Shown here: positions 2,871 to 53,291 of the stretch, piece by piece
Position numbering within the stretch: the stretch's first letter is position 1
Layout of the letters: each line of letters opens with the position of its first letter
Assembly (NCBI GenBank): GCA_911728435.2
Contig: OU452198.1
Span: 2,604,001-2,668,000, forward strand
Direction of reading: 5' to 3'
DNA from: Apoderus coryli
Lineage: Eukaryota > Arthropoda > Insecta > Coleoptera > Attelabidae
Length of the DNA: 64,000 bases
Notes under the pieces: model-generated
Told to the model about the DNA's origin: nothing
The model's database searches: none
What the model saw: the letters and a program-made list of their open reading frames with translations, nothing else
Position numbers and translations under genes: made by a program

Positions 2871-3114
2871 TCATATTTTTGTTCAATCTTTATGGAAAAA
2901 GTGACAAAATAGGTGAAAAAGTCGATTTTTATGGGAATTAAATTTTGATTTTTAGCTTTAATAATGGTTTTCCCACAGATTTTTTTTTTTCAAATGTACT
3001 ATTTCAAATGCTGTCTTTCGAATAATAAAAAAAGAAGATTCCACTGCCCCTAAAGTCGTCTCTCCCTAATTTAATATATGAAAAATTGAACAGGAGACGA
3101 TTTAGTTTTTAAAA

Positions 3115-3164
3115 ATGTACCTGAAGAAGGCAATTGTGCATTGCCGAAACGTTGGCGGACATGT
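3115..3164 (+). ncRNA. Hammerhead-like motif, diverged copy
   Basis: CTGAAGA at 3121-3127 is followed by one extra A, then stem II GGCAAT (3129-3134) pairing with ATTGCC (3140-3145) across a 5-nt loop, then GAAAC (3146-3150) and GTT (3151-3153). Stem I is weak: C3120 pairs with G3154, and ATGT upstream can pair with ACAT at 3159-3162 across an internal loop. The downstream sequence (GTGAAA, then TTTTTAATTGGAACCTCATCC) has the same layout as the arm at 24606-24724. Processing activity is uncertain. Confidence 0.4.
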
Positions 3165-3599
3165 GAAAACAAGAATTGTTTCACTTGCATCTGTTTTTAA
3201 TTGGAACCTCATCCTAAGAAAAAAAAAATCCATTATGAAATAAAGAGCAGACTTTACACTCCAAGCAACACAATTAAAATTCGCTTTTTCTTCACGCTTG
3301 GAGAAATTTTCTTTTTTTCTTCCATCATTTTTATTGGACGGACCAGAAACCGCGCTTAAGGAATTATGCGGCTGATCAGCAGGGTTTAATTGATTTTTCA
3401 CAATTTGGTGCGTCTTTTTCTTTTGGCTCCATGTCATTTCTTTGATTGTTCTAATCTTTCCATCTTGTTTTCTTCTATGATATCGATCACGGTCCAGCCT
3501 TCTTTGAATATGTCGTCGTTTATTTTTGAGTATTTTTAGACGTATTTATATAAATATGTTTTATATTTGTATTTTTTGGACACATTATAAATCGACCCA

Positions 3600-3752
3600 T
3601 GAGTAGTTGCTGTTGGTATAGATATAATTCACAAGAAAAAAAAACAAAAATAAAAAAAAAATAAAAATTAAGAAAAAAATAAAAATACAAAAAAATAAAA
3701 ATTAAGAAAAAACAAAAATAGAAAAAAAAACACAAAAAATACAAAAAAAAAG
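3600..3752. repeat. A-rich low-complexity tract
   Basis: Runs of AAAATAAAAAT-type simple sequence. The open frame on the minus strand here is a composition artefact rich in F, Y and L. Confidence 0.8.
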
Positions 3753-36299: not shown

Positions 36300-37228
36300 T
36301 TCGTGTAAAATAAAATAAACTGTTGCCCTCGAGGCACAAATAGCTCTTCATATTTAAGTGTAAAAGTAATAATTTTATGACCCAAAAGTCATTTATTATT
36401 CCGTATTTCGAATAAGTTTAGGAAGTATATATTTTTTTATTTTGACCCCTTTTACAATATTTACGAAAGCCTATGAAAACAAGTTTTTTATAACACATTT
36501 TATAGGTTATATTCTATCAAAGCTATAAATAACTAGTTAATATTTCTGCTATGTTTAAGAAATACATTTTTTTTCTAACCTTTCTACCCCATTTTACACT
36601 TTTTTCGAATGTCAATGTGGTCTAATTGTTTAGGTTAAATATTTTAGGTTATATTTAATTAAACGTACAAAAAATTATTGTATATTTTGCATAAGTTTAA
36701 GAACTATGATTTTTTTAATTTTTAAACCCCTTGCCTACGCTCAATGTTAATCACCACCTATAAATATCGTGTAGTATTTTCGTACCAAATGTGGTTAAAA
36801 TCCGTTAAGTGGTTTTTGAGTTAGCACGGATACAAATTTTTTCTGACCCTTTTATGCAATTTTCACGGACGCCTATGGTACATTAATTTTTGTCGTGTAT
36901 TTTTAATACCAATTTAACTAGTTAAATATAAAAAAAAAATTACATTTTAAATATTTTTTTATTTTACCCCCTTTTCTACTATTTCGAACGCCTATGTAAA
37001 TAAAAATGGTATGCTGCATTTTGTAGGTTATCTTATATCAAAGCTATATATAATTAGCCAATTTTTCTGATATATTTGGGAAGCATTTTTTTTTTCGAGC
37101 TCCTTGCCATGTCCTATAATATTTTTGTACCAAATTTGGTTAAAATCTGTTAAGTGGTTTTTGCGTTTTCGTGGATACAGACAGACAGACACACTGACAG
37201 ACAGACATTTTTTTAAAACTACTTATTT
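36300..37228 (-). repeat. Family A repeat, inverted copy 3
   Basis: The complement of the 17605-19930 order: the CTCGAGGCAC end at 36330, ~140-bp units with AACGCCTATG cores, then the CTGTCTGTCTG end near 37190. It continues beyond the fold-back insertion at 39105 (CATTTTAAAC-type complement, AAACAAGTATTTCCGGTGAA). The segment around 36840-36880 is the uninterrupted version of the site where the heat shock pseudogene sits in copy 2. Confidence 0.85.
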
Positions 37229-37353
37229 TATTTTCTAAAGTAATCCATATTCAACGTGGAGTGGAATCAATATAAGTATAAATAAAGACGTCTGCTCCAC
37301 AAAATCCAAATATATATATATACGTTCAATCTTCTATAAATTGGTTAACATTT

Positions 37354-37396
37354 ACCAGACATGTTTCGGAACAATAATTGTTCCATCATCAGTGGC
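37354..37396 (-). ncRNA. Hammerhead-like motif, element 1 left arm
   Basis: On the minus strand: GCCA, CTGATGA, extra T, seven-pair stem II (GGAACAA with TTGTTCC), GAAAC, ATGTC, TGGT. Stem I is GCCA with TGGT (one G-T wobble). The cleavage triplet would be GTC. Confidence 0.55.
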
Positions 37397-37567
37397 ACAT
37401 TATAAATTTTTCGAAATGCGAGAGGCCGAACATTTACATATGCATCCTATGGAAAGTTTTTCATATTAAGGGGTTATATAATTGATGTATTTTTATTCAA
37501 ATCTAACCCCTTACTATAAAAAACTTTCCATAGGATGCATATGTAAATGTTCGGCCTCTCGCATTTC

Positions 37568-37610
37568 GCCACTGATGATGGAACAATTATTGTTCCGAAA
37601 CATGTCTGGC
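37568..37610 (+). ncRNA. Hammerhead-like motif, element 1 right arm
   Basis: GCCA at 37568-37571, CTGATGA at 37572-37578, extra T at 37579, stem II 37580-37586 with 37590-37596 (seven pairs, TTA loop), GAAA at 37597-37600, palindromic ACATGT (37600-37605) able to form a minimal or dimeric stem III, C17-like C at 37606, and TGGC at 37607-37610 closing stem I. This is the order of a type I hammerhead. The unpaired T between box and stem II is non-canonical. Confidence 0.6.
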
Positions 37611-37647
37611 AAATGTTAACCAATTTATAGAAGATTGAACGTATATA

Positions 37648-39051
37648 CGAGGCATGTTTTTTAAGTAAGTACCGTTTTGGAATTAAAAAAAGACGTGCAA
37701 AGATATCGCAATAATTTTATTTTTACATGAAAGCCTGTACCCTAATCTACTTTTCTACATAATTTCCGTGAATATTGAGGCACTTGTCATAACGTGGCAC
37801 CAGTTTTTGAATACCCTCCTCATAAAATTCTGCCGCCTGACTTGTTAACCACTGTATCACAAATGTTTTGACTTCGTTATCGTCTTGAAGACGCTGACCA
37901 CCCAGGTGTTTCTTCAAGTGCAGGAACAAATGGTAGTCGGTGGGCGCCAGATCAGGGCTGTATGGAGGATGATCTAGAGTTTCCCATTTAAAAGATTTGA
38001 TGAGATCTTTGGTCCGATTAGCCACATGTGGACGGGCATTGTCATGCAGCAAAACGATACCCTTACTCAACTTGCCACGTCTTTTGTTCTGGATTGCACG
38101 ACGCAGATTGTTCAATGTCTCACAATAAGACGCTGCATTGATTGTCTCATTACGAGGCAGAAAATCCACTAGCAATACTCCTTTTCTGTCCCAAAAAACT
38201 GTGCACATGATTTTCCGGGCAGAAATTGTTACAGTCCAGAACAAAAGACGTGGCAAGTTGAGTAAGGGTATCGTTTTGCTGCATGACAATGCCCGTCCAC
38301 ATTGCTTAAACTTCACTCTTTTGGGTGATGATGAATTTCGCCATTCCATGGATTGTTGTTTCGATTCTGGTGTGACGTAGGCCACCCATGTTTCGTCACC
38401 AGTAACAATTTGGTCTAAAAAATCTTCACCTTCATTGTGGTACCGCTCAAGGAAAGTTAAGGCACTGCCTAAACGTTGAGTTTTGTGCAAATCCGTCAAC
38501 ATTTTTGGAACCCAACGTGAACACAATTTCCGGTAATTCAAGTTCTCGGTCACAATGCGATACAAAACACTACGAGAATATTGAGGAAAGCAGTCGCACA
38601 TTGATGAAATTGTAAAGCGTCTGTTTTCTCTCATCTTTTCCTCCACTTTCTGCACCAAATCTTCATTAACGACCGAAGGACGCCCACTCCGTTCTTCATC
38701 ATGCACATTTGTGCTGCCATCTTTAAATGCTCTCACCCATTTCCTTACCATTCCGTCACTCATAATGTTTTGTCCGTAAACTTCACAGATCTCACGATGA
38801 ATATCGATCGGTTTTACGCCTTTAGCAATAAGAAATCGTATAACAGCCAGTACTTCACAATCGGCGGGACTCACGATTGTCGGAGGCATCTTAAACACTC
38901 AGTAAACAACATATACAATGAGGAATCAGACTGTAATGGCGGCAGTGCGTAGACAAGAGATGTAGGTAACCAGCGCGCATGCGCGGAACGCCGACCGTAG
39001 CGCTGCGGCGGCGGAATCGCAAAACGGTACTTACTAAAAAAACGTGCCTCG
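37648..39051 (-). mobile_element. Mariner element, copy 1 (CGAGGCATG family)
   Basis: 1404 bp between TA duplicates (37646-37647, 39052-39053). Terminal inverted repeats begin CGAGGCATGTTTTTTAAGTA on the left and CGAGGCACGTTTTTTTAGTA on the right in complement. It encodes one transposase on the minus strand with UTRs of about 100 and 160 bp. It is inserted in the right arm of fold-back element 1. Confidence 0.95.
37747..38889 (-). CDS. Mariner transposase with a 24-residue internal insertion
   Basis: 380 codons from ATG at 38889. Residues 1-110 form the paired helix-turn-helix DNA-binding region, with GRP linker-like residues near 70. The WVPKML signature is at 126-131. The catalytic triad is complete: D165 (TGDETWV), D283 (LLHDNARPH) and D318 (APTDYHLF), with 34 residues between the last two, hence the DD34D mariner class, cut-and-paste transposition at TA. 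Residues 197-220 have no counterpart in the sister copies. They are the in-frame translation of an inverted copy of the DNA encoding residues about 265-288. The reading frame is open throughout, but the insertion lies in the catalytic domain and probably impairs folding. Confidence 0.9.
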   Translation of the reverse strand: MPPTIVSPADCEVLAVIRFLIAKGVKPIDIHREICEVYGQNIMSDGMVRKWVRAFKDGSTNVHDEERSGRPSVVNEDLVQKVEEKMRENRRFTISSMCDCFPQYSRSVLYRIVTENLNYRKLCSRWVPKMLTDLHKTQRLGSALTFLERYHNEGEDFLDQIVTGDETWVAYVTPESKQQSMEWRNSSSPKRVKFKQCGRALSCSKTIPLLNLPRLLFWTVTISARKIMCTVFWDRKGVLLVDFLPRNETINAASYCETLNNLRRAIQNKRRGKLSKGIVLLHDNARPHVANRTKDLIKSFKWETLDHPPYSPDLAPTDYHLFLHLKKHLGGQRLQDDNEVKTFVIQWLTSQAAEFYEEGIQKLVPRYDKCLNIHGNYVEK

Positions 39052-39104
39052 TATATATTTGGATTTTGTGGAGCAGACGTCTTTTATTTATATACTACTT
39101 ATTT

Positions 39105-39205
39105 ATGTTTAAAATGAGCAAAAACAAGTATTTCCGGTGAAATAAAAAAAAAATTCATATGGAGAGCTAATAAGTTGCAATAATTTAAACTTTGAAACTT
39201 GTATA
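39105..39205 (-). repeat. Family A continuation right of fold-back element 1
   Basis: TGTTTAAAATGAGCAAAAAC and AAGTATTTCCGGTGAAAT are the complement of the start of copy 2 near 17605-17640, confirming that element 1 split a family A copy. Confidence 0.7.
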
Positions 39206-39320
39206 AATTAATTTATGTTCTGAAGTAATCCATCGATCGAGGAGTGAATGTTGTTGTTTGAATAAAAGACGTCTACTCCACAAAAAATCTTTATATATAC
39301 GTTGAAACTGTTTATGATTC

Positions 39321-39360
39321 GCCAGACATGTTTCGGACTACAACGTCCATCATCAGTGGC
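39321..39360 (-). ncRNA. Hammerhead-like motif, element 2 left arm
   Basis: Minus strand: GCCA, CTGATGA, extra T, stem II GGAC with GTCC around a six-nt loop, GAAAC, ATGTC, TGGC. Stem I GCCA/TGGC is fully paired. Identical to the opposite arm. Confidence 0.6.
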
Positions 39361-39769
39361 TAAGGAACCTTATATAATTCGGTTAGATGAGGGGGTTAAA
39401 CTTCATATGAACTTAGAATAGGGTACTTTTACATTGATCTTCAATTTAAACGTCTATATAAAAAAACGTAAAATTAAAGATGAAGAGAAAAGAAAAACAC
39501 AAACAAACAAATGTTGAAATGAAACACAAATTTAAATTTTAAATACCTATATATTTTATTTTTTATTATGCTCAATTTCTAAAAAACAAATTTCCATAAA
39601 ATGGTAAGACTCCTACTAATTTAATATTATTACATCATATTTTAATTTAAGTCATTATTTTACAGACATTATATAGACGTTTAAATTGAAGATCAATGTA
39701 AAAGTACCCTATTCTAAGTTCATATGAAGTTTAACCCCCTCATCTAACCGAATTATATAAGGTTCCTTA

Positions 39770-39809
39770 GCCACTGATGATGGACGTTGTAGTCCGAAAC
39801 ATGTCTGGC
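39770..39809 (+). ncRNA. Hammerhead-like motif, element 2 right arm
   Basis: GCCA 39770-39773, CTGATGA 39774-39780, extra T 39781, stem II 39782-39785 with 39792-39795, GAAA 39796-39799, C39800, GTC 39803-39805, TGGC 39806-39809. Stem II differs in sequence and length from element 1 but is still paired, which is compensatory support for the fold. Confidence 0.6.
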
Positions 39810-39886
39810 GAATCATAAACAGTTTCAACGTATATATAAAGATTTTTTGTGGAGTAGACGTCTTTTATTCAAACAATTAATTTATG

Positions 39887-46293: not shown

Positions 46294-47339
46294 CGAGGCA
46301 TGTTTTTTAAGTAAGTACCGTTTTGGAATTAAAAAAAGACGTGCAAAGATATCGCAATAATTTTATTTTTACATGAAAGCCTGTACCTTAATCTACTTTT
46401 CTACATAATTTCCGTGAATATTGAGGCACTTGTCATAACGTGGCACCAGTTTTTGAATACCCTCCTCATAAAATTCTGCCGCCTGACTGGTTAACCACTG
46501 TATCACAAATGTTTTGACTTCGTTATCGTCTTGAAGACGCTGACCACCCAGGTGTTTCTTCAAGTGCAGGAACAAATGGTAGTCGCTGGGCGCCAGATCA
46601 GAGCTGTATGGAGGATGATCTACAGTTTTCCATTTAAAAGATTTGATGAGATCTTTGGTCCGATTAGCCACATGTGGACGGGCATTGTCATGCAGCAAAA
46701 CGATACCCTTACTCAACTTGCCACGTCTTTTGTTCTCGATTGCACGACGCAGATTGTTCAATGTGTCACAATAAGACGCTGCATTGATTGTCTCATTACG
46801 AGGCAGAAACTCCACTAGCAATACTCCTTTCTGTCCCAAAAAACTGTGCACATGATTTTCCGGGCAGAATTTGTTTGCTTAAACTTCACTCTTTTGGGTG
46901 ATGATGAATGTCGCCATTCCATGCATTGTTGTTTCGATTCTGGTGTGACGTAGGCCACCCATGTTTTGTCACCAGTAACAATTTGGTCTAAAAAATCTTC
47001 ACCTTCATTGTGGTAGCGCTCAAGGAAAGTCAATGCACTGCCTAAACGTTGGGTTTTGTGCAAATCCGTCAACATTTTTGGAACCCAACGTGAACACAAT
47101 TTCCGGTAATTCAAGTTCTCGGTCACAATGCACAGTGGTTAACAAGTCAGGCGGCAGAATTTTATGAAGAGGGTTTTCAAAAACTGGTGCCACGTTATGA
47201 CAAGTGCCTCAATATTCACGGAAATTATGTAGAAAAGTAGATTAAGGTACAGGCTTTCATGTAAAAATAAAATTATTGCGATATCTTTGCACGTCTTTTT
47301 TTAATTCCAAAACGGTACTTACTTAAAAAACATGCCTCG
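46294..47339 (-). mobile_element. Mariner copy 2, snap-back derivative
   Basis: 1046 bp between TA dinucleotides (46292-46293, 47340-47341). The left ~207 bp (3' UTR and last transposase codons) reappears inverted at about 47133-47339. The element therefore has two 3' ends and no 5' end. Between them lie minus-strand transposase pieces: frame 46815-47126 (LNYRKLCSRWVPKMLT, first catalytic region TGDKTWV with the E replaced by K) and frame 46393-46851 (second and third catalytic regions LLHDNARPH and APSDYHLF), separated by a frameshift. The N-terminal DNA-binding domain is gone. Confidence 0.9.
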
Positions 47340-51963: not shown

Positions 51964-53291
51964 CGAGGCACGTTTTTTTTAGTAAGTACCGTTTTCCGAT
52001 TCCGCCGCCGCAGCGCTACGGTCGGCGTTCCGCGCATGCGCGCTGGTTACCTAGATCTCTTGTCTACGCACTGACAGTCTGATTCCTCATTGTATACGTT
52101 GTTTACTGAGTGTTTAAGATGCCTCCGATAATCGTGAGTTCCGCCGATTGTGAAGTACGGGCTGTTATACGATTTCTTAGTGCTAAAGGCGTAAAACCGA
52201 TCGATATTCATCGTGAGATCTGTGAAGTTTACGGACAAAACATTATGAGTGATGGAATGGTAAGAAATGCTCTCACCCATGAGCATTTAAAGATCGCCGC
52301 CCAAATGTGCATGATGAAGAACGGAGTGGGCGTCCTTCGGTCGTTAATGAAGCTTTGGTGTAGAAAGTGGAGGAAAAGGTGAGAGAAAACAGACGCTTTA
52401 CAATTTCATCAATGTGCGACTGCTTTCCTCAATATTCTCGTAGTGTTTTGTATCGCATTGTGACCGAGAACTTGAATTACCGGAAATTGTGTTCACGTTG
52501 GGTTCCAAAAATGTTGACGGATTTGCACCAAACCCAACGTTTAGGCAGTGCATTGACTTTCCTTGAGCGGTACCACAATGAAGGTGAAGATTTTTTAGAC
52601 CAAATTGTTAGGGTGACGAAACATGGGTGGCCTAAGTCACACCAGAATCGAAACAACAATCCATGGAATGGCGACATTCATCATCACCCAAAAGAGTGAA
52701 GTTTCAGCAAACAATTTCTGCCGGAAAATCATGTGCACAGTTTTTTGGGACAGAAAAGGAGTATTGCGAGTGGAGTTTCTGCCTCGTAATGAGACAATCA
52801 ATGCAGCGTCTTATTGTGAGACATTGAACAATCTGCGTCGTGCAATCCAGAACAAAAGACGTGGCAAGTTGAGTAAGGGTATAGTTTTGCTGCATGACAA
52901 TGCCCGTCCACATGTGGCTAATCGGACCAAAGATCTCATCAAATCTTTTAAATGGGAAACTCTAGATCATCCTCCATACAGCCCTGATCTGGCGCCCAGC
53001 GACTACCATTTGTTCCTGCACTTGAAGAAACACCTGGGTGGTCAGCGTCTTCAAGACGATAACGAAGTCAAAACATTTGTGATACAGTGGTTAACAAGTC
53101 AGGCGGCAGAATTTTATGAGGAGGGTATTCAAAAACTGGTGCCACGTTATGACAAGTGCCTCAATATTCACGGAAATTATGTAGAAAAGTCGATTAAGGT
53201 ACAGGCTTTCATGTAAAAATAAAATTATTGCGATATCTTTGCACGTCTTTTTTTAATTCCAAAACGGTACTTACTTAAAAAACATGCCTCG
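51964..53291 (+). mobile_element. Mariner copy 3 (CGAGGCATG family)
   Basis: 1328 bp between TA dinucleotides (51962-51963, 53292-53293), with both correct termini. It has the full 5' leader (GC-rich, GCGCATGCGCGC) and 3' UTR. Its transposase is broken. Confidence 0.93.
52119..53216 (+). pseudogene. Mariner transposase, broken copy
   Basis: ATG at 52119. The N-terminal helix-turn-helix region matches copy 1 until 52263, where about 10 bp are inverted and extra bases inserted, so the frame changes. It resumes at 52367 (MEEKVRENRRFTIS) through WVPKML and LERYHNEGEDFLDQIV. A small deletion near 52610 then removes the frame just before the first catalytic aspartate. The third frame (to 53216) contains LLHDNARPH and APSDYHLF intact. 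It lacks the 72-bp inverted insert of copy 1, and so gives the ancestral arrangement there. Confidence 0.9.

Follow-up and report, generated by a model that had tools for sequence, protein, structure and literature searches.

The question raised by this locus is why two neighbouring fold-back elements should carry a hammerhead-like motif in every arm. The window, the whole stretch of 64,000 nucleotides of Apoderus coryli DNA that was analysed (contig OU452198.1, positions 2,604,001 to 2,668,000 of the forward strand), contains them as element 1 and element 2 (Table 1). An earlier note on this DNA related the motif to the hammerheads of Penelope-like elements (PLEs) and retrozymes, and took the fold-backs for non-autonomous relatives of these with RNA processing at both ends. 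The link with PLEs was borne out by the analysis, but the mode of propagation was not. We think it likely that each element arose by a single insertion of a PLE with an endonuclease, primed from the two strands of the target at two start sites on the RNA.

Parent element and window copies

The genome was searched with an arm of element 2, which gave at least 46 matches, the best 40 of 1,289 candidates being scored. A tandem array at 18.97 Mb of G000:C1 contains three same-strand copies, 3,595 bp apart, and one unit of it (L077) was read. It has an intact open reading frame (ORF) of 913 codons starting MDYF, the product of which gives a reverse transcriptase match (RVT_1, E = 4e-10). Aligned with the protein of another PLE, L070, in which GIY-YIG passes the Pfam cut-off (PF01541), it is 29% identical (E = 1e-80) over a region spanning both reverse transcriptase and GIY-YIG, and it is through this alignment that the endonuclease is assigned to L077. 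No relative of the protein was found in the viral and genome contigs, nor in PDB by sequence at E ≤ 1; the protein database yielded three relatives, without names. Two further features of PLEs are present, namely tandem copies forming pseudo-long terminal repeats (pseudo-LTRs) and a tail of 30-40 bp accompanied by target-site duplications (offsets 25-60 bp, A-runs included). The start of the ORF, ATGGATTACTT, is the reverse complement of the AAAGTAATCCAT head, which is the known PLE tail. The partner sought by the earlier note, with a Penelope-type reverse transcriptase and the same AAAGTAATCCAT, thus exists in the form of L077.

By sequence comparison, each fold-back in the window is an inverted dimer, truncated at the 5' ends, of an autonomous PLE that is intact elsewhere in the genome. 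The arms of element 2 are 208 nt long and 100% complementary, the repeat extending 2 nt into the target-site duplication. Its right arm is 98% identical to the pseudo-LTR of L077, and its left arm, with the tail, 97%. The centre and the right copy align with the reference in a single piece (query 862-1277 to reference 3158-3574, 95.9%). When the PLE protein was compared with the window by tblastn, only 17 residues of the ORF start were recovered in the window copies, which are taken to be truncated and not autonomous. Element 1 belongs to a family related to L077, being about 72-79% identical to it over the alignable parts. Its arms match over 80 nt at 99% and 68 nt at 96%. It lies inside another repeat, between two copies of the 11-bp ACTACTTATTT, and two uninterrupted copies of that repeat (L072 and L008) hold the 11 bases once, providing an empty site. 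Only about 9 bp separate the ungapped boundary of its right arm from the duplication.

Ends, arms and the mode of insertion

Placed on the L077 reference, fold-backs that retain both outer ends stop at about 3611-3615 on the tail side and at 3573-3580 on the other. Both outer ends could be read in 30 fold-backs (a set of 23, a further six, and element 1), and in every one of these exactly one arm was tailed. The 23 comprised 16 to which the element 2 arm or the motif had led and seven, with 1.2-2.4 kb arms, located through GIY-YIG. In each of the 23 the longest flank repeat (8-16 bp) placed one end close to the arm boundary and the second 25-60 bp further out; geometries with two tails or none were permitted in the search and never won (0/23). 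The longest repeat reached 10 bp or more in 22 of the 23, compared with 17 of 506 mismatched flank pairs. Because a candidate duplication had been a condition for entering this set of 23, six further minus-plus motif pairs from the genome listing were fetched regardless of their ends. All six had one tail, and a clear duplication of 9-14 bp was seen in five, L078 being ambiguous. If the two arms chose their ends independently, discordant pairs would be expected to make up at most half on average. More than one of the PLE families in this genome seems to follow the rule.

The L077 family had 22 sites, and 15 of these were used in the end count; of the others, three were one-sided (L042, L049, L054), three lacked one outer end (L055, L067, L068), and one was nested (L050/L060). 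Eight inverted GIY-YIG pairs were picked from a longer list and fetched; seven entered the count, and the eighth, L076, was excluded because it is nested. Further inverted repeats, which lacked an end or PLE identity, were left aside.

The arms of a single insertion resemble each other more closely than they resemble those of other insertions, with a divergence, across 14 fold-backs, of 0.44% within an insertion and 1.26% between them. There were 28 differences from the majority base, 17 common to both arms and 11 confined to one. The inner ends of the two arms also correlate (n = 16, median difference 41.5 against 158.5 when permuted, P = 0.0009), and continue to do so without the nested L050 (n = 15, 34 against 163.4, P = 0.0005). 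Taken together, the near-identical arms and correlated inner ends point to one RNA, or RNAs from the same source, having been copied twice in each insertion.

The following course of events would account for these structures. Both strands of an AT-rich target would be nicked, about 8-16 bp apart, and each exposed 3' end would prime reverse transcription of PLE RNA. One start would lie inside an AC-rich loop, some 95 nt downstream of the ribozyme's AUG, and the second about 38 nt further, just within the start of the main ORF. The two complementary DNAs (cDNAs) would grow toward each other, stop before reaching full length and be joined, the product being two 5'-truncated copies with their 3' ends outward, flanked by a target-site duplication and with a tail on one arm. 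Two-strand priming with one start per strand would thus explain four features: 3' ends that face outward, a duplication, a tail on one side only and inner ends that are truncated. Much of this has a counterpart in the lizard (anole) PLE studied in vitro by Frangieh 2024 (PMC11167929), cited here from part of its text: both target strands were cut and extended, and reverse transcription was internal, with two adjacent start sites in an AC-rich stem-loop and the tail corresponding to the stretch between them. We also advance, as a tentative proposal that we do not yet favour outright, that PLE integration is obligately bipartite, one ribonucleoprotein using two RNA start sites, one for each nicked strand. 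The one-tailed inverted dimer would then be the normal product, and the tail would mark the strand primed at the second site.

The tail side often ends in an A-run of variable length, longest in L082 and seen also in L078, L042, L054 and L067. These runs may reflect slippage of a T-rich primer along the RNA's AAAA as reverse transcription begins.

Several observations weigh against this account of the insertions. In the part of PMC11167929 considered, no difference between the strands in start site was seen in vitro, so the one-per-strand rule goes beyond the biochemical results. PF01541 gave no score at E ≤ 1 in the L077 protein itself. In L055, L067 and L068 one arm is tailed and the other lacks its outer part, stopping at reference positions 3040, 3300 and 3289, and no convincing duplication was found at these three sites; either a later loss or a start elsewhere on the RNA would give this result. 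One-sided insertions make up three of the 22 L077-family sites, two of them tailed (L042, L054) and one untailed (L049). The duplication of L058 is of low complexity and that of L064 is only 8 bp. For element 1, the automatic flank search chose a different, 8-bp repeat, and its 11-bp duplication rests on the empty site. The arm with the tail was the shorter in eight cases, equal in one and the longer in seven, so no order of synthesis can be read from the lengths. Finally, every copy comes from one genome, and the search with the element 2 arm scored the best 40 of its candidates.

Copying of one RNA by a leader and a follower was also considered. It was not supported, as the tail arm was not consistently the shorter.

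The main alternative is self-priming, in which a cDNA or antisense transcript folds back and copies itself to give a head-to-head palindrome (Arkhipova et al. 2013, PMC3846280). It would produce nearly identical arms and correlated inner ends, and palindromes at the junction have been published. However, an arm copied in this way should repeat the outer end of the first, whereas the single tail in 30 of 30 cases places the start of the second arm at another RNA site, and the inner ends of one insertion may differ by up to 438 nt. We therefore consider self-priming unlikely.

Still less probable, in our judgement, is that the fold-backs are non-autonomous or retrozyme-like elements whose hammerheads cut the transcript at each end and which a PLE mobilises as units. 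They are short and without ORFs, they have a ribozyme motif in each arm and target-site duplications, and a PLE partner is present in the genome. On the other hand, since the arms are inverted, each transcript contains a single sense motif, and in the element 2 transcript this is predicted to be buried in a hairpin of about 208 bp (-374.6 kcal/mol); excision at both ends, as the earlier note had proposed, is not possible on such an RNA. A fold-back moving as a unit would also share an internal junction among its copies. The 16 motif pairs obtained with the element 2 arm (best 40 candidates) were all minus-then-plus and had 16 different spacers, and thus do not represent a single fold-back element in many copies. 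The middle of element 2 consists of ordinary PLE 3' untranslated region (3'-UTR). Moreover, the seven inverted dimers with 1.2-2.4 kb arms, which bear reverse transcriptase and GIY-YIG frames, have the same geometry as the short ones, which therefore look truncated. Hammerheads in fold-backs, then, need not imply RNA excision.

Chance nesting, recombination between neighbouring copies and assembly hairpins are hardly credible, although the genome has thousands of copies and long palindromes can arise as assembly artefacts, given the matched duplications, the constant one-tail geometry, the outward 3' ends, the empty site, and the orientation of neighbours within 1.3 kb among 100 listed places (nine minus-then-plus, and one plus-then-minus consisting of two different motifs).

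The preferred reading, two-strand priming, bears on a mode of integration that is unsettled and in which inverted copies were previously ascribed to self-priming. The 30 one-tailed fold-backs turn it into a testable rule, that each insertion involves two initiations at two RNA sites, one per strand.

The hammerhead-like motif

The four motifs, one in each fold-back arm, lie where the earlier note had placed them. Their order is stem I, CTGATGA, one base, stem II, GAA, ACATGT, C, stem I, a layout that corresponds on sequence to a type I hammerhead with a minimal palindromic stem III. The core of that type (CUGANGA ... GAA ... UH with stems I-III) is present, stem I being GCCA/TGGC with a single change in one arm. 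The pairing of stems I and II and the palindromic ACATGT were described correctly. CTGATGATGG has four exact matches in the window, all of them inside the arms; CCGAAACATGTCTGGC has three, and the fourth arm contains a copy with one mismatch. The canonical core has no nucleotide between A9 and stem II, whereas one extra base, also pointed out previously, sits there in all four motifs.

Throughout the 428-Mb genome the pattern CTGATGANNNNNNN{0,12}GAAACATGTC occurs 2,925 times (1,458 + 1,467), against 0 + 0 for the reversed control, which puts the motif beyond chance. No copy was found in the viral contigs. The covariation test proposed in the earlier note was made on 65 distinct strings from the 100 places listed by the genome pattern search, with 1,000 shuffles, which do not preserve relatedness among the strings. 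With one base after CTGATGA skipped, stem II pairs 2, 3, 4 and 5 were formed in 62/65, 59/65, 52/64 and 34/64 strings, exceeding the shuffle maxima of 52, 45, 39 and 32. Pair 1 is nearly constant and showed no excess (59/65, shuffle mean 59.3). Skipping no base, or two, never beat the shuffle maximum. Stem II thus covaries when one base is left unpaired, and in pairs 2-5 the prediction held. Variation in stem I is mostly paired (18 strings, themselves selected for pairing), and the stem III palindromes vary between families.

The skipped base is T in 64 of the 65 strings. Loci of other PLE families in the genome have the same layout with CTGAGGA-A, CTGAGGA-T or CTGAAGA-A and with alternative palindromic stems III, for example ACGT or ACGCGCGT. 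Motif hits in PLE-family loci numbered 106 with the extra base (T or A) and five without, a count selected for having stem II and including overlapping loci. The constancy of the T and the extra T or A in the other families argue that the base is not a defect peculiar to the window copies. The idea that it is simply the U of an AUG fits the T families and not those with an extra A, and is kept only as a lead.

Against the identification as a hammerhead, the Rfam hammerhead models gave no match, either at gathering or at E ≤ 10, including with a 71-base stretch around one motif, and the covariance-model search that the earlier note had recommended therefore failed. At E ≤ 10 only weak matches to non-hammerhead families appeared, below their cut-offs. 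This PLE type is thus missed by the Rfam hammerhead models.

The ribozyme would be a passenger within the pseudo-LTR. Folded alone, the short motif is predicted to form stems I and II, in competition with an inner helix. Cleavage in the parent's tandem transcripts probably takes place in dimeric form or is assisted by the PLE protein, either of which is plausible. In the anole system the ribozyme depended on the protein, and insertion in vitro could do without the ribozyme (PMC11167929, in part).

Some other motifs were noted. Those without the extra base are at L069:1479 and L074:6868 (minus), L073:787 (minus) and L073:5870 (plus). One has a stem III capable of a short hairpin and one is set in a separate inverted pair; they could belong to retrozyme-like or other PLE families. 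Two different motifs on one strand, about 2.15 kb apart, recur at the distant sites G000:C1:1902100/1904243 and C1:8460577/8462726, possibly as a duplicated segment or a composite element. In the window itself, positions 3121-3160 contain another hammerhead-like motif, CTGAAGA-A-GGCAAT..ATTGCC-GAAACGT, which resembles one in the GIY-YIG locus L010 and in which stem I appears broken.

Table 1. Features of elements 1 and 2, in window coordinates. Element and copy assignments are by sequence comparison.
Feature	Position	Strand	Remarks
Left target-site duplication, element 1 (ACTACTTATTT)	37218-37228		Single occurrence in uninterrupted repeats L072 and L008
Element 1, 5'-truncated inverted PLE dimer	37229-39093		Split by mariner-like transposon
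Tail of element 1	37229-37283	-	End of left copy, reaching ORF start; AAGTAATCCAT is reverse complement of ATGGATTACTT
Hammerhead-like motif, element 1 left arm	37354-37396	-	One stem I change, TGGT
Hammerhead-like motif, element 1 right arm	37568-37610	+	Stem II GGAACAA..TTGTTCC
Presumed mariner-like transposon, nested in element 1 right arm	37648-39051	-	TA flanks; transposase-like ORF 37747-38898
Right target-site duplication, element 1	39094-39104		Pairs with ACTACTTATTT at left
Left target-site duplication, element 2 (AATTAATTTATG)	39206-39217		12 bp, two flanking copies
Element 2, 5'-truncated inverted dimer, L077 PLE family	39218-39874		
Tail of element 2 (36 bp)	39218-39253	-	Left copy only; reaches ATGGATTACTTCAGAA, PLE ORF start
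Left arm of element 2, PLE pseudo-LTR	39254-39461	-	Inner end at unit position ~3662
Hammerhead-like motif, element 2 left arm	39321-39360	-	
Single-copy centre of element 2, PLE 3'-UTR of longer right copy	39462-39668	+	Unit from ~3454
Right arm of element 2, PLE pseudo-LTR	39669-39874	+	No tail; ends in AC-rich loop (TTTTATTCAAAC)
Hammerhead-like motif, element 2 right arm	39770-39809	+	Stem II GGAC..GTCC
Right target-site duplication, element 2	39875-39886		Second copy of AATTAATTTATG

The transposon that splits element 1, which its motifs suggest is mariner-like, contains a 71-bp inverted internal duplication (99%; 38026-38096 and 38232-38302) inside its transposase-like frame. Related frames at 46393-47138 and 52364-53216 seemingly lack its extra residues.

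Relation to known systems

Hammerheads in PLEs, inverted pseudo-LTRs and a tail that may or may not be present have already been published. PMC3846280 and PMC11167929 discuss how PLEs integrate, and in the parts of the literature covered by the searches no statement of a strict one-tail rule was found. The elements described here resemble the endonuclease-bearing PLEs of the Penelope/Poseidon type, as far as the sections of those two papers go, in the ORF with reverse transcriptase and GIY-YIG, the tandem and the inverted pseudo-LTRs, the target-site duplications, the 30-40 bp tail, the AT-rich targets, the start of reverse transcription in an AC-rich stem-loop, and a predicted cut 26 nt past the AUG (counted on the L077 unit sequence). 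They differ in two respects. Arkhipova 2013 (PMC3846280, in part) proposed self-priming as the origin of inverted pseudo-LTRs; there the duplications measure 8-10 bp, and a tail of 31 bp is 'optionally present' on one of the pseudo-LTRs, whereas here the tail is on exactly one arm of every readable fold-back. The ORF of the anole PLE (PMC11167929, in part) has its start within the ribozyme, whereas in L077 the ORF that begins at the hammerhead's AUG is only 12 codons long (reverse complement 178-216), and the 913-codon ORF begins 117 nt later.

The metazoan non-LTR retrozymes (PMC7229834, in part) are short tandem repeats with canonical hammerheads that give RNAs of about 170-400 nt and circular RNA, and their mobility has been proposed to depend on PLEs. 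They have in common with the window elements a type I hammerhead. The window elements, in contrast, are inverted, truncated PLE copies with a non-canonical hammerhead, and are not retrozymes by these features.

With regard to the ribozyme itself, the motif order, the tiny stem III suited to dimers, the copy number and the association with PLEs are all shared with minimal type I PLE hammerheads. Cervera and de la Pena in 2014, and Lunse, Weinberg and Breaker in 2017, reportedly described these in thousands of copies. The window motifs may differ from these in their one unpaired base between A9 and stem II. An extra base in the catalytic core is shared with a viroid hammerhead that De la Pena and Flores are said to have found active in 2001 with an additional core nucleotide; that hammerhead is otherwise canonical, and belongs to a viroid.

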